DNA of 27,995 nucleotides from a virus, in IMG/VR virus record IMGVR_UViG_3300030390_001913, positions 1 to 27,995 of that record, one strand, 5' to 3'. The notes beneath the pieces are model-generated. The model was given only the letters and a program-made list of their open reading frames with translations, made no database searches and had not been told where the DNA came from. Below, piece by piece: positions 2,969 through 23,500 of the stretch; position 1 is the first letter of the stretch; every line of letters starts with the position of its first letter. Made by a program: the position numbers and the translations under genes.

Positions 2969-4705
2969 TTATTTTTGTTTTGCTGTTGGACCTTTTCCTC
3001 CGCCTTTTGCTTTATAGGATGCTACTGCACCTGCAATTGCTTTCGCTGCTTTTTCTGATTTGCCTTGTTTTTTAATTTTATTTACTAATTTGTCATATGA
3101 TTCATCTACTTTACCATCTTGATCTTCATCTTCAGCATCGATTTTTTTATCCCAAAATCCTTTAGGTAAACCTTCTTTTAATTCTTTAGCTAATTTTTCT
3201 GATATACGAGATACTATCCCATTAGAATTTAAATTTGAATTATCATCTGAGTTATTATTTGAGTTCTCATTTGATCCTTGATTTGTTTGTTCTTTTACTA
3301 ATGCGTCTGGGTAATATTCTGCTGGGCCTATTCTTAATTTACTCTTATCAGTAACACCAGTATCAAACCAAGATTTAATAGCATTGTCAACATTTTTACC
3401 ACCTAAGAAATGACTTAGTAAACTTTCTAATCCTTTAGATCCTTCTGCTACCCAAGCATCAAATTCTTCTTCATTATCCCACTCAAATTTATCATCTGAT
3501 GTAAATTGATATGGTGGTTTATTTTGTAAATTAGACATTGCAAATGACATCCCACTACCTTCATGATTACCATAATGTGATTCTCTAAGTGATACAACAT
3601 CTTTAGAAGGTGTTTCTTTATATTTAAAATAAATAGTATATCTCTTTTTATTACCATTATAATCTTCTAGATATACTGTTTTTGTAGCAAATGCTTTTCC
3701 GTTGTAGGCACGGCGCCATTTATTCATATTCATAGCTTCTGTTATATTAGTTTCTGTTAAATCATTAACTGATGTAATGTAATCTTCAACAGTTTCATCA
3801 ATTTCAACGTCATCTACGACTTCTATATTATCATCGCTTACTACGCTTGTAGCTACGTCAACTACATCGTCAATTTTTGGTTCATTCAATTCAAAATCAA
3901 GATACTCTTGAGCACCTGTTATTGCTTCTTTTGCTTTAAATATTTTACTTTGCCACCATGAAGGTAAATCTACTTCACCCATACCATCAAATTGATCTAA
4001 TACTCTATATAATTCCATTGATGCTTTACCAATTTGATATAAATCACCTTTAATCATAGATGGTTCATTATCCTCATGACCTAAATCTAAATCTTCTTTA
4101 ATAAATTTTGATTTAGCTGCTTTAAAATCTCCTTTATAAAGACTTTGAACTATTTTACGCCCAACCGTTTCAAGTTCATCAGCACTTAAGCTATATTTTT
4201 TTCCAAATCCTTCTAAATATCCTCTTGCTATATCTCCATAATCAGCAGGATCAATAACATCATCTACTGATTTTGCTTCTAATTCTTCTAAACCTGCAGC
4301 TGACAATGCTTCAATATCACTTGCTTCATTATCATTATCAGAGGTAATATCATAATTACCTACTTTAGGATCACCATATTGTCCACTTTCTAAGTCTCCA
4401 TCTTCACTTATATTTTTTTCAATAGCAGCACCTCTGGTTTTTTCGTAATCGGATAACTTACCATCTTTGTCTAGGTCTGCTTTTTTAGGATTTTTTAAAG
4501 CATCTTTAATTAACTCTGTTAATTTAGGATCTCTCATCTCTGTGGTTTTCTTTTTTGCCATATTAGTAGCACGTCCGTACATTACTGCCTCTGCATCTTT
4601 ACCATATTTTTTAACAAGATCTCTCTTGTTTTTTTTCATATTCATTATGATATCTTCTCTTTTATCAAGCTCAGATTTAGATAATTTACGTTCGTTTAAT
4701 GACAT
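2969..4705 (-). CDS. Multi-module protein with EF-hand-like loop and basic C-terminus; probable processed virion cargo
   Basis: 578 aa built from apparently independent modules. Residues 1-60 are basic and helical (NKRDLVKKYGKDAEAVMYGR). An EF-hand-like loop DLDKDGKLSDYE (D77, D79, D81, E88) follows, then an acidic stretch. At about 210-272 lies a segment I recall as recurrent in marine phages (MIKGDLYQIGKAS, LPSWWQSKIFKAKE, AQEYLDFEL). Next come a mixed domain (324-470), an Asn/Ser-rich linker (475-495), a second weaker Ca-loop DEDQDGKVDESY (526-537) and a very basic tail (QGKSEKAAKAIAG, GGGKGPTAKQK). (L/I)xE motifs lie near the joins: E5, E101, E204, E275, E323, E503. This fits proteolytic separation during head maturation, but no processing is shown. 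The start is 4 bases after the H1-like gene. Confidence 0.8.
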   Translation of the reverse strand: MSLNERKLSKSELDKREDIIMNMKKNKRDLVKKYGKDAEAVMYGRATNMAKKKTTEMRDPKLTELIKDALKNPKKADLDKDGKLSDYEKTRGAAIEKNISEDGDLESGQYGDPKVGNYDITSDNDNEASDIEALSAAGLEELEAKSVDDVIDPADYGDIARGYLEGFGKKYSLSADELETVGRKIVQSLYKGDFKAAKSKFIKEDLDLGHEDNEPSMIKGDLYQIGKASMELYRVLDQFDGMGEVDLPSWWQSKIFKAKEAITGAQEYLDFELNEPKIDDVVDVATSVVSDDNIEVVDDVEIDETVEDYITSVNDLTETNITEAMNMNKWRRAYNGKAFATKTVYLEDYNGNKKRYTIYFKYKETPSKDVVSLRESHYGNHEGSGMSFAMSNLQNKPPYQFTSDDKFEWDNEEEFDAWVAEGSKGLESLLSHFLGGKNVDNAIKSWFDTGVTDKSKLRIGPAEYYPDALVKEQTNQGSNENSNNNSDDNSNLNSNGIVSRISEKLAKELKEGLPKGFWDKKIDAEDEDQDGKVDESYDKLVNKIKKQGKSEKAAKAIAGAVASYKAKGGGKGPTAKQK

Positions 4706-4897: not shown

Positions 4898-5587
4898 TTA
4901 TTTAATAAGTCCTGCTAATTTTTTAAATCTAGTGATTTCTTCACTAAGAACTTCTTCTTTTATTTTTTCCTCATTGGTTGTTTTAACAACATGAGCTCTA
5001 GTATAATAAGTAATTGTATTTCCGATTTGATCCATCAGTTTATCATCACCCATTCTTTCTGCTTTTTCTTGAGCTTTTGTTAAAAGACCTAATACAGCTG
5101 ATACATCAGAAGATTCACCTGCTAATTCAGAATCAACTTCGATTTCAGATTTATCAGATACATCATCAATATCAATATCATCTTCAACATTAATATCAAC
5201 ATTATCTTCGACATCTACTTCTTCAGCTTCTCTCATAGTATCATCTTCTTCCATATCACCACGCATTTCTTCTTTAACGTCGTCTTCTTCGTAAGTACTA
5301 CGCATGCCTTCTTCAACATCATCTTCCATATAAGATCCACCTCGCATGCCTTCTTCAACATCATCCTTTTTCATTTCTTCAGAAACGTCTTTAGGTTCGT
5401 CTTTTTTAAGTTTAGCTAATTTTTCTTCATTGTCTTTAATGTCTTTTTCAAGGTTTTTTATATGGTCTCTATCATCACGGATAGCACCTTCCATACGTTT
5501 TTGTTCTTCCTTGTTTCCTTTTTTAGAATCTTCAGCCTCTGCTAAAAAGTTGGCTTTGATTATTTCTTTTAATTCCGATTTTTTCAT
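4898..5587 (-). CDS. Acidic repeat protein with probable capsid-targeting leader
   Basis: 229 aa, very acidic. The N-terminus MKKSELKEIIKANFLAEAED is an amphipathic helix ending in FLAE followed by A (E17), closely resembling the T4 capsid-targeting sequence with its gp21 cut site. Residues 25-65 look like a charged coiled coil. Residues 75-120 hold an imperfect tandem repeat of 13-14 residues (DDVEEGMR, DDVEEGMR, DDVKEEMR). A long Asp/Glu-rich stretch follows, then a helical C-terminus with EEVLSEEITRFKKLAGLIK. The C-terminal 'I-x-R-F-K-K-L-A-G-L' ending recurs in marine phage proteins, from memory. It is the first gene after a canonical late promoter. An internal head or scaffold-like protein is my best guess; no enzymatic motif is seen. 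Confidence 0.8.
   Translation of the reverse strand: MKKSELKEIIKANFLAEAEDSKKGNKEEQKRMEGAIRDDRDHIKNLEKDIKDNEEKLAKLKKDEPKDVSEEMKKDDVEEGMRGGSYMEDDVEEGMRSTYEEDDVKEEMRGDMEEDDTMREAEEVDVEDNVDINVEDDIDIDDVSDKSEIEVDSELAGESSDVSAVLGLLTKAQEKAERMGDDKLMDQIGNTITYYTRAHVVKTTNEEKIKEEVLSEEITRFKKLAGLIK
5262..5365 (-). repeat. Imperfect in-frame tandem repeat within the 229-aa acidic gene
   Basis: Two identical 23-base copies start at 5301 and 5343 (42 bases apart) and a diverged third copy starts at 5262 (39 bases away). All spacings are multiples of three. They encode DDVEEGM, DDVEEGM and DDVKEEM, each followed by a short variable spacer with a Met-Glu/Glu-Glu-Asp end. The repeat can change copy number without breaking the frame. 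Confidence 0.85.
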
Positions 5588-5666: not shown

Positions 5667-6236
5667 TTATTTTTTATTATATTCTGCCTTTTTAGTGTTT
5701 TTAACGAATTGTTTTCCTTTTTTATCTCCTCGAACTTTTTTAGCTACTGTTGCTTTTCGTTCTGCTTTGGTTAAAGATTGTGCTTTTTTCTTAGGTAAAC
5801 ATCTTGTAGTTGCTTTACCTTTTTTCATAGTACCACAATCACCTGATATATTACCTGATGTATTGATTCTTACCCAATTTTCTTTTTTAAACCAATCGCG
5901 TAAGGATTCTTTAACTTGCTTAGTAACTCGCTCATAGTTAGGGGCTACATTTTCATTTAATTCATCTTGCTCATCATAGTAATCTTTTGGATGGAATTTC
6001 ATTTCAACGATTTTACCATCTGGTTTAATACTTTGACCATCAACTAAAATTTCAACTGGATATGGTTTATCTGGTTTATCATACCAATAAGCCATTTCGT
6101 AACCACCATTATCTAGTAATTCAACTATTAAACCTCTTTTATAATCTGTGTCTTCGGCTTGTAGGATTACTTTTTTACCTCTAGGTAAAATTAACTCAGC
6201 TTCAGGTACTCTATTATTATCTTTTTCTTCAGCCAT
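5667..6236 (-). CDS. Two-domain protein with DUF6321-like basic C-terminus
   Basis: 189 aa. Residues 10-85 form a beta-rich domain (LILPRGKKVILQAEDTD, RGLIVELLDNGGYEMAYWYD, YPVEILVDG). A joint QDELNE (E95) followed by N is an (L/I)xE site. The C-terminal part (about 113-185) is basic: DWFKKENWVRINTSG, GDCGTMKKG, TRCLPKKKAQSLTKAERKA, then a lysine-rich end. I recognise this as DUF6321-like (WVRI...GDCGT...RCLPK). Two cysteines (C134, C146) could bind metal or form a disulfide. It starts 2 bases after the 175-aa gene and ends its operon. Cleavage at E95 would release the basic domain, possibly a DNA-binding cargo peptide; that is inference. Confidence 0.8.
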   Translation of the reverse strand: MAEEKDNNRVPEAELILPRGKKVILQAEDTDYKRGLIVELLDNGGYEMAYWYDKPDKPYPVEILVDGQSIKPDGKIVEMKFHPKDYYDEQDELNENVAPNYERVTKQVKESLRDWFKKENWVRINTSGNISGDCGTMKKGKATTRCLPKKKAQSLTKAERKATVAKKVRGDKKGKQFVKNTKKAEYNKK

Positions 6237-6238
6237 TT

Positions 6239-6766
6239 TTATACTGCTATATTTTTAATTATAGATACTATATCTTTTCCTTTTAATGCAGCTTTTAAAC
6301 TACTTATACCCCCTGCTACTACATTAGATTTTCTTAATGAGTTAAATGCTTCTGTTCCTGCTCTTGCTCCTAAACCTAATAATAATAAAATAAATAAACT
6401 ATCAGTAATTATTGTTTTTGCTTTTTGATCTTTAGTAAATAATCCAACTACACGTTCAATTGGTTTTTTAAAATCACCTTCTAACTTATGTGTAAAATTA
6501 TATATTTTATCAGCTGCTTCTTTACCTTTACCAAAATTATATTTATCAAATAATTTACTTACATATTTAGCTAATATATTAGTTAAGGTAGTTCCTGCTA
6601 AAATGTAAGAAAGAATTGATAAGGGATCTACTACTTCATTTAATTCATCTTTTTTATCATCTAATTTATCTTTAATTACAGATGCTAATTCATCGCCTAA
6701 TAAACCTAACTCATTTTCATTTAAATAGTTTTCTTTTAGATACTTATGTATGTTGAATTTATCCAT
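6239..6766 (-). CDS. Hydrophobic protein with capsid-targeting-like leader; possible membrane-active cargo
   Basis: 175 aa. The N-terminus MDKFNIHKYLKENYLNENE contains two overlapping (L/I)xE sites (YLKE at E12, YLNE at E17), and a further DELNE (E44) precedes the main body. Two hydrophobic segments follow: about 49-68 (LSILSYILAGTTLTNILAKY) and about 118-138 (TDSLFILLLLGLGARAG), the second a convincing transmembrane helix. The remainder is basic and helical. The TAATG overlap with the 408-aa gene shows coupling. A cleaved, packaged hydrophobic protein would suit a role in DNA ejection across the inner membrane, by analogy with ejection proteins of other phages. That is inference; a host membrane protein role cannot be excluded. 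Confidence 0.75.
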   Translation of the reverse strand: MDKFNIHKYLKENYLNENELGLLGDELASVIKDKLDDKKDELNEVVDPLSILSYILAGTTLTNILAKYVSKLFDKYNFGKGKEAADKIYNFTHKLEGDFKKPIERVVGLFTKDQKAKTIITDSLFILLLLGLGARAGTEAFNSLRKSNVVAGGISSLKAALKGKDIVSIIKNIAV

Positions 6767-7992
6767 TATCCTTTCATATCACCTTTACATACTTTAACTG
6801 CACGTCCAGACAAATATGCTGATGATTTTTCACCTGCTGCCATTCTTTTTTTTCTATATGCCTCACCTTTTTTACAAAGTTTTTCAGTTAATTCTTGTTC
6901 TTTTTGTGGATTCTTTTTTCCTAAAGCTACTAATTGTTTAACAATTTTATCTGCTTCTTCTTTCGATTTACCATGCATTTGAATCATTTTAGAAACACGT
7001 TCAGGTGATGGTTTTTCATCTTCATCTAACTCACCAAACTCATATGTCCATTCCCCCTCATCCATTCTATCAAATTGTGAGGATTTATTAAATTGATCTT
7101 TAGATACTACTGTATCATACTCATCTTGAGTTATTTTACCTACTGCTACATCATAAGACATTTGTGCTTGTTCTTTTCCTTTACTTTTTATAAATCTAAT
7201 AGCTTCTTCATGTGCGTGAATTTCATCAGCATATTGGTCTGCTATAGGACCACCTTCTGGTTCAGCTTCCTGTTCCATATCTCTATAAATTTGTTCAAGA
7301 TTTCTTTCTAAATCTTCTAATTCATATCCATCAACTAATTCAGCAGCTTGTGATGAAATTTTTATTTCATTTACTTTACCTTTCATAAAAATTCTATCTC
7401 TATCAATTTCATTTTTATCTTCTTCAAAACTTCTCATCCACTTAGCTAATATTTCTCTAGCTTCTCTTTTATCTAAACCAAATTCATCTTCTAAATAAGA
7501 ACCAGCTCCAAACATATTTGTTATACCTGAATCTCTTAAATCATTTAAAAATGTAAACATTGATTTTTCAACACCTTCGTTTAATTTTTCTTTTTTTGGT
7601 AATGCAAAAAATGAGACTGAAGCTGCCCATGTTCTATCATCATCAATATCTGTTTCATAATCAGAAACACTACCATATTCATAATCAAATTTATCAGTTA
7701 TTTTATTTACTTCTTCAAATGCTTTTTTTAAATTTAAAACATCATCACCTTCAAAATAATGATTACCTCTACCCGCCATTCTTATGTAGTATCCTTTTCT
7801 ACCATCTGACATAGAACCTCTAACACTATCATCAAACTCTAATCCTGTTTCGCTATTAATAGTTTTTACTAATTTTTGAATATCATCTTCTTTTTCCATT
7901 TCATATGGAGAAATAGATTCTTCATTTAATTTAGAATATGCTTCTTTTAAATATTGGCTTTTAAACCATTTAGTAGTGTTAAAATTATCCAT
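6766..7992 (-). CDS. Modular protein with capsid-targeting-like leader and DUF5872-like C-terminus
   Basis: 408 aa. The leader MDNFNTTKWFKSQYLKEA has a YLKE site (E17) followed by A; a second site KLNE (E24) is close behind. Residues 30-133 form an alpha/beta module (GLEFDDSVRGS, GYYIRMAGRG, DDRTWAASVSFFALP), closed by KEKLNE (E139) before G. A helical module follows (ILAKWMRSFEED), then GKVNE (E209), a helical acidic region with QYADEIHAHEEAIRFI, and a basic C-terminal motif at about 370-404 (EKLCKKGEAYRKKRMAAGEK, SSAYLSGRAVKVCKG) that I recognise as DUF5872-like. It is the first gene of a late operon, 7 bases after a canonical TATAAATA. Function unknown; multi-part virion cargo is the working hypothesis. 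Confidence 0.8.
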   Translation of the reverse strand: MDNFNTTKWFKSQYLKEAYSKLNEESISPYEMEKEDDIQKLVKTINSETGLEFDDSVRGSMSDGRKGYYIRMAGRGNHYFEGDDVLNLKKAFEEVNKITDKFDYEYGSVSDYETDIDDDRTWAASVSFFALPKKEKLNEGVEKSMFTFLNDLRDSGITNMFGAGSYLEDEFGLDKREAREILAKWMRSFEEDKNEIDRDRIFMKGKVNEIKISSQAAELVDGYELEDLERNLEQIYRDMEQEAEPEGGPIADQYADEIHAHEEAIRFIKSKGKEQAQMSYDVAVGKITQDEYDTVVSKDQFNKSSQFDRMDEGEWTYEFGELDEDEKPSPERVSKMIQMHGKSKEEADKIVKQLVALGKKNPQKEQELTEKLCKKGEAYRKKRMAAGEKSSAYLSGRAVKVCKGDMKG

Positions 7993-8591: not shown

Positions 8592-9011
8592 TTATTTTTT
8601 ATATCCTTTAATAAGGGTAGTTAATTTCGATTCAGATTTACCTGATTTAGGTATTATAACTTCATTTTGTGATACTTTTATAAGTATATTATTGATGTTT
8701 TCTATTAAAAATTTTAAGTTTGAATAATTTAATCTATTATCACTATAATCTTCTTTTATTTTTTTTATAATTTGATTAGTTAATTTAGTTGATTTTATTC
8801 CTCCACTATAATCTATATTTAATTTAATACATTGTATATTAGCTACCAAAAAAGTTAAATCTATATCTTTTAAATCATTATTTTTATATGCTTTTTTAAT
8901 AGAAGGAATAATTTCATTTATATAAATTTTAGGTTGAGGTGTTAATTTAGGAGAAGGAGTACTTTTATCTCCTCCTTTATATCCTCCTGATTTTAAATTT
9001 ATTATACTCAT
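8592..9011 (-). CDS. Small lysine-rich protein of unknown function
   Basis: 139 aa. The first 30 residues are Gly/Ser/Pro/Lys-rich and probably disordered (SGGYKGGDKSTPSPKLTPQ). The rest is alternating helical sequence rich in Ile, Asn and Lys (IIPSIKKAYKNN, LTFLVANIQCIKLNIDYSGG, LKFLIENINNILIKV), possibly two related helical units, since 'DLTFLVANIQCI' and 'NLKFLIENINNI' are similar. The start overlaps the stop of the 754-aa gene (ATGA), so translation is coupled to it. One INE tripeptide (about residue 33) occurs but is not a convincing processing site. I do not recognise a family. Confidence 0.65.
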   Translation of the reverse strand: MSIINLKSGGYKGGDKSTPSPKLTPQPKIYINEIIPSIKKAYKNNDLKDIDLTFLVANIQCIKLNIDYSGGIKSTKLTNQIIKKIKEDYSDNRLNYSNLKFLIENINNILIKVSQNEVIIPKSGKSESKLTTLIKGYKK

Positions 9012-11272
9012 AGTCCTAATTTTTTAAGTTGACTAATAGTATCTGATGCTGAAGTATGTAATATTCCAATTCCACCTTGTGCTCTCCACTGTTCTATATT
9101 AGATTTTCTATCATCTATTAGTATGTGGTTAGGAGCAGCATAATTTTGTTTTTTAGATGCTTGTGCTAGTGTTAATTTAATTCCTGGCATATTATTTCTT
9201 ACCCATAATCTTTTACCTAATCTTGATGTAGCTGATCTTGAGGGAGAAGATAATAATTCTGTATCATAATTTTTAATATAATCCCAATACTGTTTTCCAT
9301 CCTTCATCCAAGGCATGCCAACCCAAAATCCTACTTTACCTTGACCATCAATTAATTTCCAAAATTCTTCTTTACCATATTTTTTTTCATAATCTGATGG
9401 TGCTATTCCATCTGAATATTTTTTAAATGATTCATCAAAATCTGTTAAAACACCATCCATGTCTGAAAATATTTTATATTTTTCTTCATTTTCAAATAGT
9501 GGTATGTTTAGCTTTGGAGCTCTATTTCTCCATAAATTTTTTATATCTCTTTGATCATTTGTATCTAAATTTAATTCATATTTTAAATAATTATCAATTA
9601 TATTTTTTAAAGGTTTTCTTGATTTTTTTGCTTTTAAATATAAACCCTGCAAATTAGCATCAATTTCTTTTTCTAATTTATAATAATCAGGAGTACCTAA
9701 TTTTTTTCTCCAAATTTTCCACCAAGGTTTTTTACCAGTTTTTAATTCATCTCTTTCAGCAGAGTCAGATTCCATTTCTTTACCTGTCTTGACATTAATG
9801 CCACTTTGCATTAAATGTTCAATTTCATGTCTAATTACATTCCTAATATCCATTGAAATTTGTTCCCACATTCTAGGTAATTCATCTATAGGAATTCTAT
9901 AATTTAATTCTACTTCTGGGATTGGTTTTTTTATAGGACGAGCTACCCCTGATGAATTAAAATCATCTACAAAATTAGCTTTTGCTATATATAAAAATTT
10001 TAAATAAGGGTATTCAAATTCTTCTCCAGGACCTACTTTTAAACTAAAATAACCTTTATTTTGACTATCTTCAAAATCACCTTTCCAAGCATTTAAAGTA
10101 TAACCTGCTAATTTAGTTACTAATGAATCATACTTACCTTCATTTAATACTTCCTTAGCTACTTCTTTAATAAATTTATTTATTCCAAAATGGTCTTTAT
10201 TTTCATTTAAAAATTCATTATCATGTCCACATTTATGGCATATAAATAAATCATTACCTCCATCTTTTATTTTCCAACTCCAATTACATTTATCACATTC
10301 AATTTTATCATCTACAATAGCTTCTGTTATACTAGAACTAACATCACCATCTATAGAATCTGTCCAATTTCTAAACATCATATTGCCTTCTGAATACGCT
10401 TCTCTTTCAATAGCATCTAAATCTTCATCTGCTGTTGTATCTGTCGTTTGAAGATTTCCAATTCTATCTTCTAAATTTTGGGTATGGTGAACCATTTCAT
10501 GAGCAAATGATCTGACAATATCTTTAGGATGTCTTCCTTCAGTATATAAAACTATAGTTTTAGTATTAGGATCATAATATGCTGTTCTACCAAAGAAATT
10601 TTTAGCATTATTATCATCTCCATCTATAAATTCTAAATCTGGTAATGGTAAAATATTTCTATTATTTTCTATCATATAATCTACTAAATCAACTATCATT
10701 TGCTTATAATCTATATACTCAGAATAAGTTGCATTTTCATTTATACTCTCATTAGTAGGGGGTCGTAGTATAGAATATATTTCTGATTTTTCTTCTACTT
10801 CAGATGGTAAAAATTCAATAAATTCTTTTTCTGATTTGTTAAGTGCCTTTCTTGCATTAGTTCCACTCATATTAGGATCATAAGTAGGAATAACTTTAAC
10901 TACAATATTTGGATATTTTTTTTCTATATCTCCTGTTCTTGCTGATACATCATCTAAATCATCCTGTCTTCCTTCTCTGTAACCAATAACAAAATAAATT
11001 ATATCTTGAGGATTATTTTTAGCTAAACGTAAAATATCTCCAATTGGAGATTTTACAGGTTCTATTTTAACTTTATTTGCTAAATATCTTTTGTAAATAT
11101 CCCAAACTAAAACAGATTCAGTTTGTTCAATACCATCACGTACTTTTCCTCCTACAAATATTGTAAATTCATCTATTTCAGGATAATCCTGTAATGCACG
11201 TTTTACAATTTCAAAATGACCTGCTGTTGGTGGTTTAAACCCACCCCCGTATGCTGCTAAAATTTTACCCAT
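9008..11272 (-). CDS. Five-domain multi-enzyme polyprotein: nucleotidyltransferase, two HExxH domains, zinc ribbon, HAD phosphatase
   Basis: 754 aa. Residues 1-170 are a cytidylyltransferase-type nucleotidyltransferase: GGGFKPPTAGH carries the HIGH-like motif (T16-A-G-H19) and SGTNARKA (136-143) the second ATP-binding motif. Residues 180-317 hold FAHEMVHH (H258, E259, H262) with EREAY (about 289-293) as possible third zinc ligand. Residues 318-357 hold a zinc ribbon (C326, C329, C345, C348). Residues 379-594 hold IRHEIEHLMQ (H482, E483, H486) with E534/E536 as candidate third ligand. Residues 595-754 are HAD-like: SDMDGVLTDFD (D604, D606), SSPSRS and ILIDDRKSN (D720, D721), similar to 5'(3')-deoxyribonucleotidases. 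Each joint carries an (L/I)xE: E179, E317, E357, E378, E594. The start overlaps the kinase gene by 8 bases. Substrates are unknown; the five domains are well supported, the cleavage is inference. Confidence 0.85.
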   Translation of the reverse strand: MGKILAAYGGGFKPPTAGHFEIVKRALQDYPEIDEFTIFVGGKVRDGIEQTESVLVWDIYKRYLANKVKIEPVKSPIGDILRLAKNNPQDIIYFVIGYREGRQDDLDDVSARTGDIEKKYPNIVVKVIPTYDPNMSGTNARKALNKSEKEFIEFLPSEVEEKSEIYSILRPPTNESINENATYSEYIDYKQMIVDLVDYMIENNRNILPLPDLEFIDGDDNNAKNFFGRTAYYDPNTKTIVLYTEGRHPKDIVRSFAHEMVHHTQNLEDRIGNLQTTDTTADEDLDAIEREAYSEGNMMFRNWTDSIDGDVSSSITEAIVDDKIECDKCNWSWKIKDGGNDLFICHKCGHDNEFLNENKDHFGINKFIKEVAKEVLNEGKYDSLVTKLAGYTLNAWKGDFEDSQNKGYFSLKVGPGEEFEYPYLKFLYIAKANFVDDFNSSGVARPIKKPIPEVELNYRIPIDELPRMWEQISMDIRNVIRHEIEHLMQSGINVKTGKEMESDSAERDELKTGKKPWWKIWRKKLGTPDYYKLEKEIDANLQGLYLKAKKSRKPLKNIIDNYLKYELNLDTNDQRDIKNLWRNRAPKLNIPLFENEEKYKIFSDMDGVLTDFDESFKKYSDGIAPSDYEKKYGKEEFWKLIDGQGKVGFWVGMPWMKDGKQYWDYIKNYDTELLSSPSRSATSRLGKRLWVRNNMPGIKLTLAQASKKQNYAAPNHILIDDRKSNIEQWRAQGGIGILHTSASDTISQLKKLGL

Positions 11273-12092
11273 TTATAAATGATTTTAATTTTGCTTGTGC
11301 TTCTTCAGCTGATACTGAGTTGTCAATAACATCTTTTACTCCACCATCTGATAAAAATGATTTTATTTGAGTATTTATAGCTGCTTTTCTTTTATCTGAT
11401 CTTGCTTGTGCTTTAGCATCTTTAGGTTTTGTACCTTGCGGTTTGTATGGAGTTAAGTATTTATTTACTATATCTTCTAAATTATCTAATTTTTCATCTT
11501 TTAAAGTGTTAGCAACTGATACAAAATTATTACCAAAAGAACTTTTATATTCATTATAATTTTTAGTTACATCATTCCAAGTAGTCATAACAATTGCTGG
11601 GGCTAAACTTCTATCTTCACCTCCTGATTTATCAAATCTATCTTGGTTTTGTTTTAATGAACGTTCTAAATCTGTGTAAACATAAAGCATAAATACATCA
11701 TATCCTGCGTTTTCTAATTCATCTTTTAATTTAAGTGTAGCTCGGCTTGAAGCTCCTGTACCATCTAATATAAATGATTCTCTACTAGCTATTGCTTTAG
11801 GTAAATCTTCATCTTTTAATTTTGAAGCTGCTTGTCTCATTAATTTAGCTGATGTACTTCTTTCTTCTGGGGTAGCATTTTTTAAATCTAAACTAACACC
11901 TGCTTTTTTAAGTAAAGGAACAAAATCTAAATCTAAATTATAAGTAGTTAAACCTGATAAATCTAGACCACGTAAAATATAACCTTTACCTGCTCCAGGA
12001 GCACCAGCTAATATAATAGCTTTAGGATTATTAGAAATTTCTTTCAGTAGTTTACCTTCTGCTATATATTTTTTATAGTCAAAATTATCCAT
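11265..12092 (-). CDS. P-loop kinase (zeta-toxin/AAA-like) with capsid-targeting-like leader
   Basis: 275 aa. The leader MDNFDYKKYIAEGKLLKE ends in YIAE followed by G (E12), strikingly like the T4 internal-protein leader that ends in FIAE before A; LLKE (E18) is a second site. Walker A is GAPGAGKG (30-37, K36). Later segments fit a small kinase: LDLDFVPLL, FILDGTGASSRATLKLKDEL (Walker B-like region about residue 108-115), and DVFMLYVYTDLERSLKQNQDR (base-binding or lid-like). The fold resembles zeta toxins and polynucleotide or small-molecule kinases; the substrate cannot be read from sequence. The C-terminus (215-275) is basic and helical (KPKDAKAQARSDKRKAA). It is followed by the 754-aa gene with an 8-base overlap and preceded by a variant late promoter, which fits a late, packaged enzyme. 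Confidence 0.8.
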   Translation of the reverse strand: MDNFDYKKYIAEGKLLKEISNNPKAIILAGAPGAGKGYILRGLDLSGLTTYNLDLDFVPLLKKAGVSLDLKNATPEERSTSAKLMRQAASKLKDEDLPKAIASRESFILDGTGASSRATLKLKDELENAGYDVFMLYVYTDLERSLKQNQDRFDKSGGEDRSLAPAIVMTTWNDVTKNYNEYKSSFGNNFVSVANTLKDEKLDNLEDIVNKYLTPYKPQGTKPKDAKAQARSDKRKAAINTQIKSFLSDGGVKDVIDNSVSAEEAQAKLKSFING

Positions 12093-15655: not shown

Positions 15656-16732
15656 TTAAAAATCTAATTTAACCCTTACAAGAAGTTCTTTTGTAAAATT
15701 CTTCTCTAGTGGTCTAGATAATTTAGCTACAGCTAATAATTCTTGTGAATCATTATATAATCCAACTGTAGTAATATATGTTGTTGGGTTATCAATAAAT
15801 GAATCAAATAATATAGCACCTGTTGAGGATGAAATAAATGAAGGATTTGAAGAATAATTATATTCACTATTTCTTGCTCTACAAAAATAAAAATCAGAAG
15901 AAATATCTTCTTTTGAATTTAAAGTAAATCCTACAGTATTAGAAGTATTAGAACCAGCTCTGGCTAAAGCATCAATTAGTCTTCCAGGATTTTCACCTAA
16001 TGTATCAAATGATCTACTAGTTGCTAAAGCAATTCCATCATTTGCTGTTGATTCATCTAATGCTTCTCCATTTAATAATAATAAATCAACATCTGGTAAT
16101 AACCAGCCATATGATCCTTTATTTGAAGTCCATCCACTTGTATTTACAGTTTGATTAACTACACCTGCTGAACCTGATACTATTTGATAAACTCTACCTG
16201 CATCTGTAAATGTTGTTGTTGTTGTTACTTTACTATCATCTGTTAATGATAACAAATCACCTGTTCCTGTTGTTCCTGATATATTTAATGTCCAAGTTCC
16301 AGGTAGTATTTCTTGTTTATATCTTGCTCTTTCTATAGGCATTGCATAAAAATATGATGCAGAATAATTACCAAATATAAAAGATGCATTTTCATCTCCT
16401 AATACTAAATTTCTATACTGACCATAATTTGTTCTTGTAGGAGTTGATCCTGTTACTAAATTATTTAAAAATTCACTACCACTACCTACTTTATCACAAT
16501 AAGCAACATCAAATTGAACTTCTGCTGATACTTCTGTTGATGCTGTTTGATATACTGTAATATAATATTGTGAAACATTACTTGCAGCTTGAACTGAGCT
16601 TGATAAAAATGACTTTAAAGTAGGAGTATTTTCACTCCACATTGCTGCTGTAACTGCATCTGTAGTTAATACTTTATCATCAGATGCTAATTCCGTATAG
16701 GCTCCTTTTGTTATTTGTTTTTGATCTGCCAT
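15656..16732 (-). CDS. Virion structural protein, paralogue of the 441-aa protein
   Basis: 358 aa. The N-terminus MADQKQITKGAYTELASDD leads to a Ser/Thr-rich beta protein with IERARYKQEILPGTWTLNIS (about 135-152), a recognisable motif of phage structural proteins. The middle contains GSYGWLLPDVDLLLLNGEAL and SRSFDTLGENPGRLIDALAR. The C-terminal 60 residues match the 441-aa protein, indicating gene duplication. It sits between the 227-aa and 441-aa genes with short gaps (10 and 6 bases). It has no catalytic motif. Because the neighbouring proteins are fibre- and tail-like, assembly into the tail or its fibres is the best inference. Confidence 0.75.
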   Translation of the reverse strand: MADQKQITKGAYTELASDDKVLTTDAVTAAMWSENTPTLKSFLSSSVQAASNVSQYYITVYQTASTEVSAEVQFDVAYCDKVGSGSEFLNNLVTGSTPTRTNYGQYRNLVLGDENASFIFGNYSASYFYAMPIERARYKQEILPGTWTLNISGTTGTGDLLSLTDDSKVTTTTTFTDAGRVYQIVSGSAGVVNQTVNTSGWTSNKGSYGWLLPDVDLLLLNGEALDESTANDGIALATSRSFDTLGENPGRLIDALARAGSNTSNTVGFTLNSKEDISSDFYFCRARNSEYNYSSNPSFISSSTGAILFDSFIDNPTTYITTVGLYNDSQELLAVAKLSRPLEKNFTKELLVRVKLDF

Positions 16733-16742
16733 AATTTATTTT

Positions 16743-17426
16743 TTAAGCTGAAATTGTTGTTTTAGTTATATTAACTGGGATTTGTGCTCTTGCTCCACTA
16801 TCTAAACCTACAACTATTAAAGAAGCAAATAAAGTATTTGATGTACTAAATAATACATTATTTCCTGTTCCTGTTATTTGACAAGTAGTACCTATTACTG
16901 TTATAGATGTAGATGTACCATTTGTAATTACAGCAGTAGCATTTTGTTTGTTTAAATTATTAGCGGCATCTGTATTTCTTCCTTCTGCTGTAAACCCATT
17001 TGTTGTTGTTACTCTTGCATCTGATAATGTAAATGAATATCCTGATGTTTCAACTAATTGTCCATTTAAATAATTTAAAGTTTGTGGAGTAACATTAATT
17101 GATGAATTTTGTGCAATTTTTAATGATGGTGGTATTCCTGCTAGTATTGGCATTACTTGAGTTCCTCTATTAAGAGTAACTAATTTATATTTCATCATTT
17201 GATTTTCATCAGGAAACGCCTCTAATAAAGGCATATTTTCTATAGCTTCACCATAGTAAGCTGATCCTGATGGATGATTTGGATTATACAATGTATAATC
17301 TATTTCATCATCAGATAATGCAAATTGAGTAATATCAAAGTTTCCACCACCCATTGCGAGTAATTCTCTACCTTTTTTAGTCAAAATAGCATCTACTGTT
17401 ATGACTTGATTATTTAAATATCCCAT
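16743..17426 (-). CDS. Virion structural protein with conserved N-terminal domain
   Basis: 227 aa. The N-terminal half is a sequence type I recall repeatedly from uncultured marine T4-like phages: NNQVITVDAILTKKGRELLA, FDITQFALSDDEIDYTLYNP, AIENMPLLEAFPDENQMMKY, KLVTLNRGTQVMPIL. The C-terminal half is a Thr/Asn-rich beta region (TVIGTTCQITGTGNNVLFST). No catalytic motif is visible. It is the first gene after a canonical late promoter, so this is where strong late expression restarts after the giant gene. Location in the particle is unknown, probably tail or baseplate associated. Confidence 0.8.
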   Translation of the reverse strand: MGYLNNQVITVDAILTKKGRELLAMGGGNFDITQFALSDDEIDYTLYNPNHPSGSAYYGEAIENMPLLEAFPDENQMMKYKLVTLNRGTQVMPILAGIPPSLKIAQNSSINVTPQTLNYLNGQLVETSGYSFTLSDARVTTTNGFTAEGRNTDAANNLNKQNATAVITNGTSTSITVIGTTCQITGTGNNVLFSTSNTLFASLIVVGLDSGARAQIPVNITKTTISA

Positions 17427-17437
17427 ATTATATTATT

Positions 17438-17454
17438 TTATTTATAAATATACG
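17438..17454 (-). promoter_or_regulatory. T4-type late promoter
   Basis: Minus strand CGTATATTTATAAATAA, identical over 17 bases to the motif at 7999-8015. TATAAATA is the complement of 17439-17446 and ends 12 bases before the ATG of the 227-aa gene, leaving only a very short leader. It should drive the 227-, 358- and 441-aa genes and possibly the nuclease and primase genes beyond. Confidence 0.8.
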
Positions 17455-17480
17455 TTTTTTTTGTTTCTAATCCAAGTTCA

Positions 17481-17501
17481 AATTAAAAATATATTTTAAT
17501 T
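17481..17501. repeat. AT-only inverted repeat at the end of the giant structural gene
   Basis: Arms AATTAAAA (17481-17488) and TTTTAATT (17494-17501) pair perfectly around a 5-base loop and touch the stop codon of the 2707-aa gene. All pairs are A-T, so the hairpin would be weak; a terminator role is doubtful, though the position between two transcription units fits one. Confidence 0.35.
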
Positions 17502-20500
17502 AAAACCCATCTGGATCTGTTACATCTATTCCTGAAAATTCTCTTCCTGCACCATTACCCGCATTTGATATATCTTGGGGGAATGAATTTTTAGATCTCA
17601 TTTCATTAATAATAGTTAATGCGTTTTGTTTTTGTATAAAACTTAAATCATTAGGAATTAAAAATCCTTGACTAGATACTGCTGATGCTCCTACTGCTTT
17701 ATCTCGTCCTGATAGTAATACATTTTTAGTTGATAGATAACAAACAACAGTTCCAGCACCAACGTTGGGGGAAGCACCAATTTGTCCAGCTGTAAGTGTA
17801 AGTTTATCACCTGGCTCCCATCCAAAAGATTCTGCAACATCTGAAAAAGCAATTTGAGTAACCTTACCTCCACTAATAGTTACAGTTACTTTTCCTCCTA
17901 ATCCATTTCCATCTGTCATACTAGGTAATAAACTTACAATTTCAGTACCATTCGATATACCAGTAGTAGTATTAAATTCGTAAAAAAGAGAACCTATAAT
18001 TGAACCTAATCGTAGTACTCCTGAGTATGAACTAGATGTTACAGTTGGTATGATTGTTGGAGGTTCAATATTATAAATCATTACTGATGAATCATCTTCA
18101 ATTTGTCTTCTTAAAGTAAATCTTTTAATTTCACCTTTAGAAACCCCATTTAATACTATTTCAGGATCTCTATCTGTAACTAAAAATGAAGGCCATCTTA
18201 CAGGATAATAACCTGCTTGAGTACTTGTATATGCTGAACCACAACCATTTACTGCTTTCATTTTAAATGGATTGTCAGATCCTGTATCACTTACTAAAAT
18301 AGAAACACCAGTACTTTGGTCTACTTTACTTTTCATATTTTCAATAGCTATAACCACAAAAAACGTTCCAGCTCCAATTGGACTTCCATTTATTTGGAAT
18401 ATATCTCCAACAGCATAATCAGCAACTATAGTAGGAGGAGGTGATAATACAGGATTTCCTGTAGATCCACTTACACTAACATAAGCTTCTACAATATTAC
18501 TTCCATCAGAAGTAAATGTTCCTACAGCACCTCCAGTCCCTAAGTTAGCTGTAAAAGTACCTGCTACAGTTGCTGGTAAATTACCTGCAACTAAATTAAC
18601 CCCAAGACCAGTAGAGGAATTGTATGTATTATATAATTGTCCACTTGTACTACCTTGCCCATTAACATAAGCAGTATCTCCAACATTTAAACTTAATAAT
18701 TGAACACTACTTGAATAATAATAATCTAACGTATCCATAATAGTAAAATCTTCAATAAAGTTTGAATCTGCAGTAATATTTCCTTGAAACTGTTTTTCTG
18801 TAAATCCTTCAACTCTAAGAATATCTCCTCTTTGTATTAAGAAAGGAGTATCTGTATTTTCATATTCTCTCATTCCAGATCCTGATGGATTCCATTTATA
18901 ATAATTTTCTGGATTTGAAGGGTTTTGACCTCTATTAATAAAATATGCATTTGTAGGACCTGTAAATTGATTATCTCTCGCATTAGTGACACAATTTTGA
19001 CTATTCTGTTGATTAAATCTTTCTTCTGAAATTGCTCTATTATATGTGTGGAAATTTACTAATTGAGGTGCTTCAACTTCTAAAAAACCATCAGAAGCTA
19101 CATTGGAGAAAAAGTCACTACTTTTTAAAGAATTATTTTGTGAGTAAAGAATCTTTGATAAACTACCTGACATTAAAAATCCTTTTATTACTTTAGTATC
19201 GAAAGTAAATGTTGCAGTTGCATTTTGAGTACCTATATTTTGAACTATTGTTACTACATCACCAATACTATATCCAGTCATGAATGCATTGTTATTTGAA
19301 ATTACAAAATCTGTAATAACACCACCTTTATCAACATCTAAAATATCAACTTTCATAGTGGTGGCACCAGCTGAACTAATAGTAGAAACATTACTTGCAG
19401 GAATATATCCTGTACCCCCGAAAATATTACTATTTACATTTATATTAGTACTACTAGTTATAAATTGTGTTACATTAAAAGTACTTTCAGCAGGGAGAAA
19501 ATTAACTAAATTAGCATTTCCTTGTCTTGATGCCGTAATAGTATTTCTTAAACTGTAAGACCATGACACAGCAGTAGTACTTCTAGTTCTTTCGTTAGAG
19601 TTAAGGGTTAAAAATCTAATTGCTCCTCCCCCAAGTGTATAAGACTTACCAAAACCATCTTTTGATTGTTGAGTTGAAAAATTTAACTTAGCAGTATTTA
19701 AAGCATCATAACTAACTGCTACTTTTCTATTAGGTTCAAATGTAGAAGATACTATTTTTTTACTTTGATTATTACCATCAATTAATATAGGTTGGGGAGT
19801 ATATCCTTGTTTTCCTTGTATACTTTCACTAGGAATTAAAATTAAAGAATCAATATTAAATTGACTTGAATCCCAATAATTTAATTGTTCAAATGAATCT
19901 TGAAAATGAGCTATATATATTGGGTTTTTATCAATAACAGCTGTTTTTCCATAAGAATTATCTCCTTCCCAAGCTGCTAATCCAGTTTCTTGAGATTGTG
20001 TGCTTCCATTTAAAAATGATAAAGCTACTGATGTTTGTATTGATGTTTGTCCTTTTGCTTTTTTATTATATGGTTGAACAGGTAAATTTAAAGGTTGACC
20101 TACAGTACCAGATGGAGTAAAATGATTGTAATCTAAACTTTGCAATTCTGATCCGTTATATCTAGGATTTATAATTCCTGGTTTTGTATAATTACTATCA
20201 GGTATGTCAGCAAATACTGACTGACTTGTATTATTTAAAGAATAAGTTACTACATTTTGAAAATTTTCTGGTTGGTATTGTTCATCATTATATGATAATA
20301 ATAATCTAGTACTACTACTTCTATTAATATTAACATTATTATTTAATGGATTATAATCTGAATTTTCAAATATTATACTTTGTGTATTTTCTACTTGCCA
20401 TTGATCTTGTTGTAAAGGGTTTAAATAAACATCTGCTACAACTTCATTCCAACTTGGATCTGCTGCGTAATCCGGAGATATACTAAAATTACTAACAGTA

Positions 20501-23500
20501 CCTATAAAACCTGGGGAGGCTGCTAATTTTGCGGATAATGTAGTTTCTCCGTTTGGAACAAAAGCAGTTTGTAGTGATGCTGAAAAGGGACCATTTGCCT
20601 TAGCTGCAATATTTAAATTAGCCCAAAGAGTAGTAGTACCATCAGAAGCATCACTTCCAAATCCTACTCTACCTATACCATTATAATTAGATAAATCAAA
20701 TGAAACCTTATAATATTTTAAATTTATAATATTAGTAGGTTGTCCTATTAAGAAAATAAAGAAATTATTACCTGAATTATTTACATTGAAACCATCAGAA
20801 GTTATACTTTCAAAATTACATATAGCATTATCTGAAACATCATTAAGTTGAAATGCGCTTACTTGTGCAGCTCCTAATTCCCCTATTGGAATTTCAAAAT
20901 CATCACCTGCTACAATAGGTGTTGCTAAATTATCAGTAATTATAATGTCTGTTATAAATTTTAAACCGAAACCTGTCCCAACTGTTATTGCAGCTTTAAG
21001 AGTACCCGTTGCTGTTCCAGATGTTGGGTTTATAGTAACATTTACATAGGTTTGAGCAACTACACCTGAAGGTAATAAGTTAGGGACACCTAAAGAACCA
21101 AAATCAGTAAGTAAATTTGTTGATTTTCTAAATCTAACATTTTGTTGTGTACTAAGAGTAAGATCACTTGTTGGAAATATCCAAGGAACAACACTATCTT
21201 TATTTACTTTTTTAAATGGATTATACTGTACATTACGTGTACTAGCATCAAATGTACTTCCACTAAATTCACCATCATAAAATTCTTCTTGATTAGTAAC
21301 TGCTTCACCTAATAAACCTACATTAGTTGTATTATATTCTATATAACCCTGAGATGAATGTGCTGAAGACGATATATCAGGCATAATATTTAAATCTCTT
21401 AACTCTATAGCTGTCTGAGGAAGATTTTGATTAAATGTTTTAACTGTAAAATTTGTTAAATTATATGCTGTAGAAGTAATATTTTTAACCATAAATGATA
21501 ATGCCTCATCAGGCATTATATCCATTAATGGTGTTATTGCAATCTTATAGGTAGTTTGATTTGAAGAGCCTGTAGGGTGATTATAAATTTCTCCTCTAAC
21601 GGATGATGATATTATAAACTCAATTACATCTGTATTATTAATTCCAAAATTTCCAAATGCATTAAAAGAAAATGATGCTTTTACAGGTTCTGTTGATTTT
21701 AAATAACCCACTAAAGGTGCTGATGGTACATTAAATAAATCACTATCTTTTTCAGCATATAAGTTTCCATATAATGCTGTTGGGGATTGTCCTGGAGCTG
21801 AAACAGCTGAAGGTGAATTATTCATTACTACATACTCTCCTGGTAGAACAGATGTAATAGTCCCTAATGAAAAACCATAATACCCAAACTGTGAACTTGT
21901 TATATTATATTTATTTAAACTACCTCCTGTACTACCTGTCATTTCATACATTTCAATACTACCTGTTAGCTCTAAATTTTGAGCAGTTAAAGGTATATTT
22001 GTTATAGCATAAGACTGCGTAGTATACGAGTCAACCTGTGGTTGTCGGTATCTATTGCGCTCTAACATGTTTTGATGTATTACAATACCTGTAGACACGC
22101 TAGTACGCGCTGGAACATAGTTTTTAATTGCTTTAAATAATGAATCATCAAAATATTTAATTAATCTTAAATAATCGTATACATTACTACCAGCATATTT
22201 TTTGAAGTAATCTTCTGCAATTTTTCTTAATTTAGGATAATAAAGATCTGAAGAATCTGCAAATCTAGGATCTGCTAAAATTTCTTGTATTGCTCCATAT
22301 CCTAAAGATTGAATTATATCATCATTTATTTCATCTTGTGGTGAAAAAGCAACTTCTAATTGATTTAAATTTTCTGTGTAACTTTGACTTATAAATGGAT
22401 CTTTTTCTATACTAACTAATCCTGATAATACTGTTCCAAAATTAAGATCTTTAGTGGATTGAATTTTATTTGAAATTCTATTTCTAAAACCAATTGCAGC
22501 TTGATCTAAAAAGTAAGTTTCAGTATTTGTTTTACTAAATATTCTTACATTTTCATTTTTTTCATATCTTATATGATAATTTGAAGTAACATCACCATTA
22601 AAGGGGTTGTGAAATGAACCTGTGATTAATTCATCTGCAGAAGCCGTTACAGCAGGGTGAGAAGATGTAATATACTCATTATAAGCTGAATTTGTAACTG
22701 CATAAGATGCTGAAAATATGTTTTCTAATTCATTACCTAAAGGTGCTCTAAAATTAACTATGTCAAATGATGATTCTGATCCTGTTATAAAATTTCCCTC
22801 AATTGATTCAGGATTCATTACAAAATCATTAAATACAGATTCACTTATATCATTTGAATAGTATCTAAATTCTTGAAAGGATCCAGAAAATGCTTGTCCT
22901 GGTAGATTAGTATCTAATGTTCCTACTGTAGCACCATCAATTTTACCTCCAAGATAAACTCCATCTTTTTCAGTTACTCCAAATTTATTCCATGCATAAT
23001 TTAAAGATGATGATATTTCGGCTCCATATAAAGCTGTTCCATACAAACCAGTCCCATATACACCTGCTCCATTAACATCAAAAGCATCAATACTAGCTGA
23101 TCCTTGAAATCCTAAACTATTACCATCATTACCATTATATATTTTATTTTTAGCATATAATGTATAAGTTACTCTATTTGAATTATTTGAAGCAGCTACG
23201 TGTTGATTTCTTTGAAGTAAAACAGACCACCAACCCCCATCATAAAAAGGTAAATAAATAGGATCTGAAATTGCATTACCTCCATCTGCTGCTGCTCCTG
23301 AAATGTATAATTTCATTTCTGCCCAATTTCTATAATCACTATTTCCTGCTCCTTGATATGAACCTGATGTTGAACCTGTGTAATTTAACATTATACCCCA
23401 ATCAAATTCTTTATCATTTTGACCATTTGATTTTTTAATGGCTAAAGAAGCTGTATTAAAACTTCCAGCAAATGAAGATGATGGATAACCTGTTGTTTTA

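Follow-up and report, generated by a model that had tools for sequence, protein, structure and literature searches.

The nearest known kinds of system to the one described here are the internal proteins of bacteriophage T4, the polyvalent proteins of phages, and the propeptides of giant-phage head proteins. In T4, according to the parts of PMC9026906 drawn on here, the head protease gp21 cuts after L/I-x-E, and N-terminal capsid targeting sequences (CTS) of 10-19 residues bring the internal proteins into the prohead. Polyvalent proteins, as presented in a portion of Iyer et al. 2017 (PMC5512222), are predicted to be packaged and processed, and an analogy is drawn there with the polyproteins of RNA viruses. 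For the head proteins of SPN3US and phiKZ, sections of three accounts (PMC10052503, PMC5694885, PMC9026906) give up to three mapped cut sites per protein. A literature search that lay mostly outside subscription titles found no report of an enzyme polyprotein processed by a head protease, and it turned up neither proteomics nor cleavage data on any relative. We describe here a candidate for such a protein.

Domain layout of the polyprotein

The DNA analyzed (the window) is a stretch of 27,995 nucleotides, positions 1 to 27,995 of the IMG/VR virus record IMGVR_UViG_3300030390_001913. Its source is a T4-like phage, and the host is probably to be found among marine flavobacteria. The protein of interest and the leaders found on neighboring genes are listed in Table 1. 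The N-terminal domain has its top PDB matches to NadD and CoaD (E 4e-6 to 1e-5); its Pfam match, CTP_transf_like, is below the cut-off, and its counterpart in Flavobacterium phage immuto (MW353175) is annotated as NadR-like. The match of PEP1 to the metallopeptidase family DUF6782 is also below the cut-off (E 0.017), and residues H258, E259 and H262 are invariant in the 33 aligned sequences. The zinc ribbon is variably present in relatives and its position varies. In many relatives the HAD domain is encoded separately, behind a leader of its own, for example MKKTPTLLDLYE followed directly by AIRPKYTIF.

An AlphaFold model based on 33 aligned sequences shows the domains with confidence. The stretches with pLDDT<50 at 173-180, 308-320, 352-360, 363-379 and 593-596 coincide with the joints, and further short low-confidence stretches occur at 224-228, 278-282, 335-342 and 519-521. 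Residues 358-378, referred to below as the element, form at most a weak isolated helix (364-372) in the model. They are predicted to lie outside the confident folds (pLDDT<50 at 352-360 and 363-379) and not to be part of a folded domain, in keeping with the initial annotation, which had treated them as a linker.

Table 1. Features of the polyprotein and leaders of neighboring genes, in window coordinates.
Feature	Position	Strand	Basis or remark
Putative cargo polyprotein, 754 aa, multidomain	9008..11272	minus	Single ORF; 80 viral-contig relatives, modules shuffled between NMNAT and HAD ends
NMNAT/PPAT-type nucleotidyltransferase domain, residues 1-172	10757..11272	minus	PDB fold matches NadD, CoaD
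Junction TNESINEN, residues 173-180, putative cut after SINE	10733..10756	minus	phi-x-E before PEP1 24/24; pLDDT<50 at 173-180
PEP1, first HExxH (HEMVHH) putative metallopeptidase, residues 181-316	10325..10732	minus	DUF6782, invariant H/E/H
Zinc ribbon CxxC...CxxC, residues 317-354	10211..10324	minus	Sequence
LNE 355-357, putative head-protease site upstream of element	10202..10210	minus	
Leader-like element NKDHFGINKFIKEVAKEVLNE, residues 358-378, C-terminal LNE 376-378	10139..10201	minus	
PEP2, second HExxH (HEIEH) putative metallopeptidase, residues 379-592, G directly after phi-x-E	9497..10138	minus	
LFE 592-594, putative site before HAD	9491..9499	minus	phi-x-E precedes HAD 19/21
HAD-type 5'(3')-deoxyribonucleotidase domain, residues 597-754	9011..9484	minus	phrog_2643 E 2e-23
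Leader MDNFDYKKYIAEGKLLKE, start of P-loop kinase gene 11265-12092	12039..12092	minus	Orthologues 85-89% identical in body, other leader (MISLVxLLKE)
Leader MDKFNIHKYLKENYLNE, start of gene 6239-6766	6716..6766	minus	
Leader MDNFNTTKWFKSQYLKE, start of gene 6766-7992	7942..7992	minus	
Second-class leader MKKSELKEIIKANFLAE, start of gene 4898-5587	5537..5587	minus	

Shuffled modules and their stand-alone counterparts

Of 108 confirmed relatives of the polyprotein, 80 were kept. Relatives carry 33 further segment clusters between sites (some 30 segment types); the clusters were made by cutting at phi-[NKTQ]-E, so that some are pieces of one domain. The segments include an Fe/Mn superoxide dismutase (E 5e-30) and a plastocyanin (E 3e-16). 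Modules M1, M2 and M9 are without a Pfam match, and those of M0 are all below the cut-off. As in polyvalent proteins, several unrelated enzyme domains occur in one phage polypeptide. One polyprotein, at 3071-6832 of contig L022, combines a complete superoxide dismutase of the Fe/Mn type with a cupredoxin of the plastocyanin type (residues 480-687 and 818-911).

Superoxide dismutase, M0 and PEP2 each occur in two forms, as a stand-alone gene in which a leader ending in phi-x-E is followed by the module, and inside a polyprotein, where the module again follows phi-x-E. The stand-alone borders, marked by a slash, are MINLIQLLTE/superoxide dismutase (L041), MIKLVDLLKEITE/M0 (L040) and MQLTLSDILFE/PEP2 (L034). 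A leader is kept at a fusion joint in L033 (3757-5583), where a nucleotidyltransferase is fused ahead of NMNAT and the NMNAT-type leader is retained between them (KLFKGLVKELILPLFELE); the fusion recurs in gene 183 of immuto, where the leader is reduced. The broader idea that separately tagged genes and fused modules pass into one another draws good support from these cases.

Leaders on neighboring genes

The orthologue of the kinase gene in L006 is 89% identical from residue 15 and begins MISLVNILKE, and kinase orthologues with interchangeable leader classes are present in many relatives. The L057 orthologue of gene 6239-6766 is 77% identical from residue 17 and has the leader MEELKSIQEFFSKPIYE. 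The body at 5667-6236 is leaderless in the window, carries the leader MNDFDLKKYFNKQYLTE in L044 (86% identical), and is a module of the polyprotein in L022, L052 and L012. Compared at the level of sequence, the leaders are swappable tags on conserved bodies. In immuto, leaders scoring >10 bits were found in none of the 66 genes of the replication-to-tail stretch and in 4 of the 50 genes of the cargo-to-head stretch, one of them adjoining the protease.

Several other genes deserve mention. The kinase, directly upstream of the polyprotein, is Zeta-toxin-like (Pfam Zeta_toxin E 2.9e-17) and is a candidate packaged effector. Two more long proteins of the window, at 66-1373 and 2969-4705, have eight [LIV][NKT]E sites each and may be extra cargo or core proteins. 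In L003, six leader-tagged genes of the MDNFDLKKYLAEG type lie within ~6 kb (15923-22107), a candidate catalogue of packaged proteins.

Cleavage-type motifs at the joints

Motifs were counted in 42 non-redundant polyproteins out of 63 unique ones. LNE was seen 64 times, against 14.1+/-3.7 in shuffled sequences. The wider motif [LIV]NE occurs 89 times in the 11,289 residues outside the five domains but only 9 times in the 20,873 residues inside them, which is an 18-fold enrichment in linkers. Enrichment in the polyproteins is limited to phi-N-E and, mildly, phi-K-E; the generic phi-x-E, with 556 occurrences against an expectation of 562.7, shows none. The other ORFs of the same loci, many of which are neighboring candidate cargo genes, are also 2.5-fold enriched in phi-N-E.

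The placement of sites was examined by counting domain matches whose alignment begins no later than residue six of the domain. At the domain start, phi-x-E is found in 24/24 cases for PEP1, 28/28 for PEP2 and 19/21 for HAD, compared with 9-19% of equal stretches inside domains. Before PEP2, phi-x-E followed directly by G is invariant (28/28); domain borders were drawn by hand, which partly builds in the exact border of PEP2, but the same border is seen independently in the stand-alone genes. As in substrates of gp21 (Peptidase_S77), phi-x-E borders the predicted mature parts. Polyproteins in L025 (4366-8304) and in L026 + L027 (8888-12370) contain two tandem diverged copies of PEP2, each starting with GRYD after phi-x-E.

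Of 10 records searched, 9 encode both a protease of the Peptidase_S77 (gp21) family and a capsid protein of the gp23 type; in the window's own 48.9-kb record, which is a fragment, no S77 protease and no capsid gene were found. LTE63-65 of T4 gp23 corresponds to [LI]V[MVST]E in all nine gp23 homologues, and the N-termini of the relatives' proteases carry LIE, LNE or LTE, and LVE or similar.

The element compared with N-terminal leaders

The element is present as the initial annotation had described it: the minus strand at 10139-10201 encodes NKDHFGINKFIKEVAKEVLNE, with LNE355-357 before it, LNE376-378 at its end, and then G. The alignment with leaders that had been claimed for it holds in register, since D-x-F-x-[hydrophobic]-x-x-[aromatic]-x-x-E is common to DHFGINKFIKE, DKFNIHKYLKE and DNFDYKKYIAE. 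It had also been proposed that the element is excised as a 21-residue peptide. Here the flanks are as proposed, phi-x-E lying on both sides, while the cutting itself is a prediction from these motifs. Compared with a CTS, the element ends in LNE and has approximately the right length at 21 residues, but it is inside the chain and not N-terminal.

The genes sampled, 1041 unique ones in all, came from the window, from the 80 relatives and from two stretches of immuto. An N-terminal pattern selected 63 genes beginning like MDNFDLKKYLAEGKLLKE, a few of them chance matches. A weight matrix was made from 37 N-terminal leaders of other genes, with the window's own excluded. The element scores 7.2 bits with this matrix, which for the best of 11 registers corresponds to p=0.00068 relative to 40,000 internal stretches chosen at random; p is 0.18, 0.39 and 0.48 for the three other linkers of the polyprotein, so the resemblance of the window's copy to leaders is real. 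When the window's leaders are included in the training, the element ranks 17th of 292,098 internal positions. True leaders score far above it, and the list is headed at 32.4 bits by a leader whose gene start was mis-called. The element family is less leader-like than the window's copy, with a median rank of 655 of 292,098 among the matches listed. In the reverse test, a matrix of the internal family (DPFGLNxYARELA) retrieves no N-terminal leaders, 6 of its top 200 matches lying in the first 8 residues against 6.0 expected.

An independent class of leader, MNxLTKFLVxxILNE, stands at the start of NMNAT genes. With a matrix from 25 of these leaders, the L006 copy of the element, NKFVNEVADEILNE, ranks first of 288,975 internal positions; the window's copy ranks 200 (best-of-15 p=0.011), and many members of the family fall below rank 1000. 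As regards T4, columns 5-11 of the leader fit residues 4-10 of IPIII in the expected register (7.4 bits, p=0.004; the CTS of IPII/IPIII is MKTYQEFIAE). The full 11-column leader matrix does not recognize T4 IPI-III (ipIII -16.3). These T4 comparisons concern the leaders, and it was with the leaders that the element was compared.

Neighbors of the element and its distribution

Exactly one copy of the element is found in each of the 36 non-redundant proteins that have it. Its neighbors were counted with modules M21 and M29 excluded, as their cut pieces contain the element. Upstream is PEP1 in 23 proteins, the zinc ribbon in 6 (29/36 together) and something else in 7; downstream is PEP2 in 17/36, HAD in 11/36 and something else in 8/36, among these the zinc ribbon (2) and the C-terminus (2).

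The initial annotation had taken the element for the leader of a separate gene for the second HExxH protein, kept as a linker after fusion to the upstream neighbor. Over 54 rows of the polyprotein tree (L034 being excluded for its short NMNAT match), element and PEP2 are both present in 19, the element only in 15, PEP2 only in 11 and neither in 9, which gives a Fisher p of 1.0. A scan with PEP2 by itself gave 22 loci. In the 16 of these that were read, PEP2 is always directly after phi-x-E, and what precedes it varies: the element, a ribbon (L119, where it sits between element and PEP2), module M0 (L107), another module (L125), PEP1 without the element (L111, L116), or a leader. Given that phi-x-E/G is constant before PEP2 despite these varied preceding parts, it is the site and not the element that is the fixed feature of PEP2. 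A stand-alone gene joining this leader to the second HExxH domain was looked for; the sole stand-alone PEP2 gene found (one gene, on four contigs) begins with another leader, MQLTLSDILFE/GKYD.

All 54 polyproteins in the tree have an N-terminal leader, the element, or both. The element is present in 22/22 leaderless rows (including L044, re-labelled as leaderless because its called start is upstream of the homologous one) and in 12/32 rows with a leader (Fisher p=1e-6). This complementarity corresponds to between one (starred) and three independent contrasts on the tree, and the p value is therefore not taken as independent proof. Because there is one copy in 36/36 proteins, and a leader, the element or both in 54/54, the element probably is, or descends from, a capsid-targeting sequence.

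Discussion

The reading that we prefer, and to which we give slightly better than even chances, is that the window encodes a cargo polyprotein that is packaged and that the head protease dices, residues 358-378 being an excised, possibly capsid-targeting, spacer. The polyprotein would be made for carriage in the phage head and brought into the prohead core, where a gp21-type head protease would cut it after phi-x-E, preferably phi-N-E, at the joints between domains. Nucleotidyltransferase, both putative peptidases, ribbon and nucleotidase would thereby come apart into individual enzymes, to be delivered to the next host. One of these joints would be the leader-like stretch 358-378, which has a cut-type site at each end and would be released as a 21-residue fragment. 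The element would probably serve as, or descend from, the capsid-targeting sequence of the polyprotein, placed internally and usually behind PEP1. Given that the joints look like head-protease sites and that one joint carries a leader-like tag, we infer that a single tag may be enough for the phage to package and cleave an entire set of enzymes.

The main rival is that the element is the C-terminal tail of PEP1, for example a regulatory helix, which moves with PEP1 and has no targeting role, the phi-x-E flanks still being processing sites. PEP1 or the ribbon, which is an insertable module, is indeed upstream in 29/36 proteins, and the element-family matrix is unrelated to leaders. However, the element comes after PEP2 in L009/L010 and after another segment in L025, and it precedes PEP1 in L043. 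It is absent from 20/54 tree rows, although most of those contain PEP1. AlphaFold shows it as a low-confidence linker, and the window's copy is leader-like (p=0.0007). We regard the tail as unlikely.

Another explanation draws on the polyvalent proteins of Iyer et al. 2017: the protein would be one of these, cut by its own embedded zincins and not by the head protease, either before packaging or in the new host. One chain holds two HExxH domains, and autoprocessing by embedded metallopeptidases is what Iyer et al. propose in the portion of PMC5512222 used here. We nevertheless consider this improbable, in that phi-x-E also borders the module in stand-alone genes whose listed module is no peptidase (M0 in L040/L041/L066, dismutase in L041), and the motif equals both that of the T4 gp21 family and the one found in these phages in the propeptides of capsid protein and protease. 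The motif evidence favors the head protease over the embedded zincins as the predicted processing enzyme.

The chain might also be an uncut multi-enzyme fusion working in the infected cell, in NAD or nucleotide metabolism, with LNE merely a favored linker word. A metabolic role would suit the nucleotidyltransferase and nucleotidase ends, and an NAD synthetase is annotated nearby in immuto. What makes such a fusion quite improbable is that phi-N-E is 18-fold richer in linkers than in domains, that phi-x-E/G precedes PEP2 in 28/28 cases, that unrelated modules (superoxide dismutase, plastocyanin, nucleotidyltransferases) shuffle in the same slots, and that the leaders of the neighbors are exchangeable.

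The retention of a leader from a once-separate second-HExxH gene is largely refuted and very improbable: the element resembles leaders, a stand-alone leader-tagged PEP2 gene exists and L033 preserves a leader at another fusion joint, but element and PEP2 are unassociated (Fisher p=1.0), 19/36 elements have no PEP2 downstream, the stand-alone PEP2 bears a different leader, and a ribbon intervenes in L119.

The packaged and head-protease-diced polyprotein can be put in a fuller form, which we offer tentatively and hold at somewhat below even chances. The protein would be a cargo polyprotein in the full sense: enzymes directed at the host would be strung together and reshuffled, would need a single capsid-targeting tag, which can be internal, and would be diced in the prohead by the head-maturation protease; the phi-x-E sites would act as recombination-tolerant borders, so that leader-tagged genes and modules interconvert. 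In T4, proteins are packaged singly, each behind a tag that can be cleaved off; if the fuller form is true, related phages have turned tag-and-cut into a platform of polyproteins with swapped cassettes. For many T4-like phages that have not been cultured, it could then be predicted from sequence alone, by way of leaders and module borders, which proteins are injected. The internal tag would also raise the question of whether capsid targeting requires a free N-terminus.

Comparison with known systems

Genes 183/184 of immuto, a phage of Flavobacterium sp. LMO8, have the same order, NMNAT, PEP1 and PEP2, then HAD, and the phage has gp21/gp23 head genes. It differs in that a nucleotidyltransferase is fused in front and HAD is a separate leader-tagged gene. 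It is without the DPFG-type element, and the joint before PEP2 is a bare VMAE/GRYD.

The head proteins of SPN3US and phiKZ, ejected proteins included, are cut by gp245/gp175 at short x-E motifs, as would be the case here. The cuts described in the portions of PMC10052503, PMC5694885 and PMC9026906 drawn on remove propeptides; those portions do not report the freeing of several enzymes from one chain.

Polyvalent proteins, as described in part of PMC5512222 (Iyer et al. 2017), are multidomain phage proteins that mix unrelated enzymes including zincins and Pol-beta nucleotidyltransferases, and in this they are similar to the present protein. Their processing is ascribed there to the embedded zincins, whereas in the present case the motif at the joints is that of the head protease, and modules are found as leader-tagged single genes as well.

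In T4, again according to parts of PMC9026906 and PMC5694885, IPI-III and Alt, packaged effectors of diverse kinds, each have a short N-terminal leader with phi-x-E at its end, as do the candidate effectors here, and the head protease is of the same Pfam family (S77) as in the window's relatives. T4 Alt is also trimmed C-terminally, and cutting breaks gp22, gp67 and gp68, all proteins of the core, into several pieces. The leader sequences here (MDNFDLKKYLAE, MISLVQLLKE) differ from those of T4. As these sources have it, T4 cargo consists of separate genes with one leader each, whereas the window phage has several enzymes per chain, with sites at the joints and a leader-like element inside.
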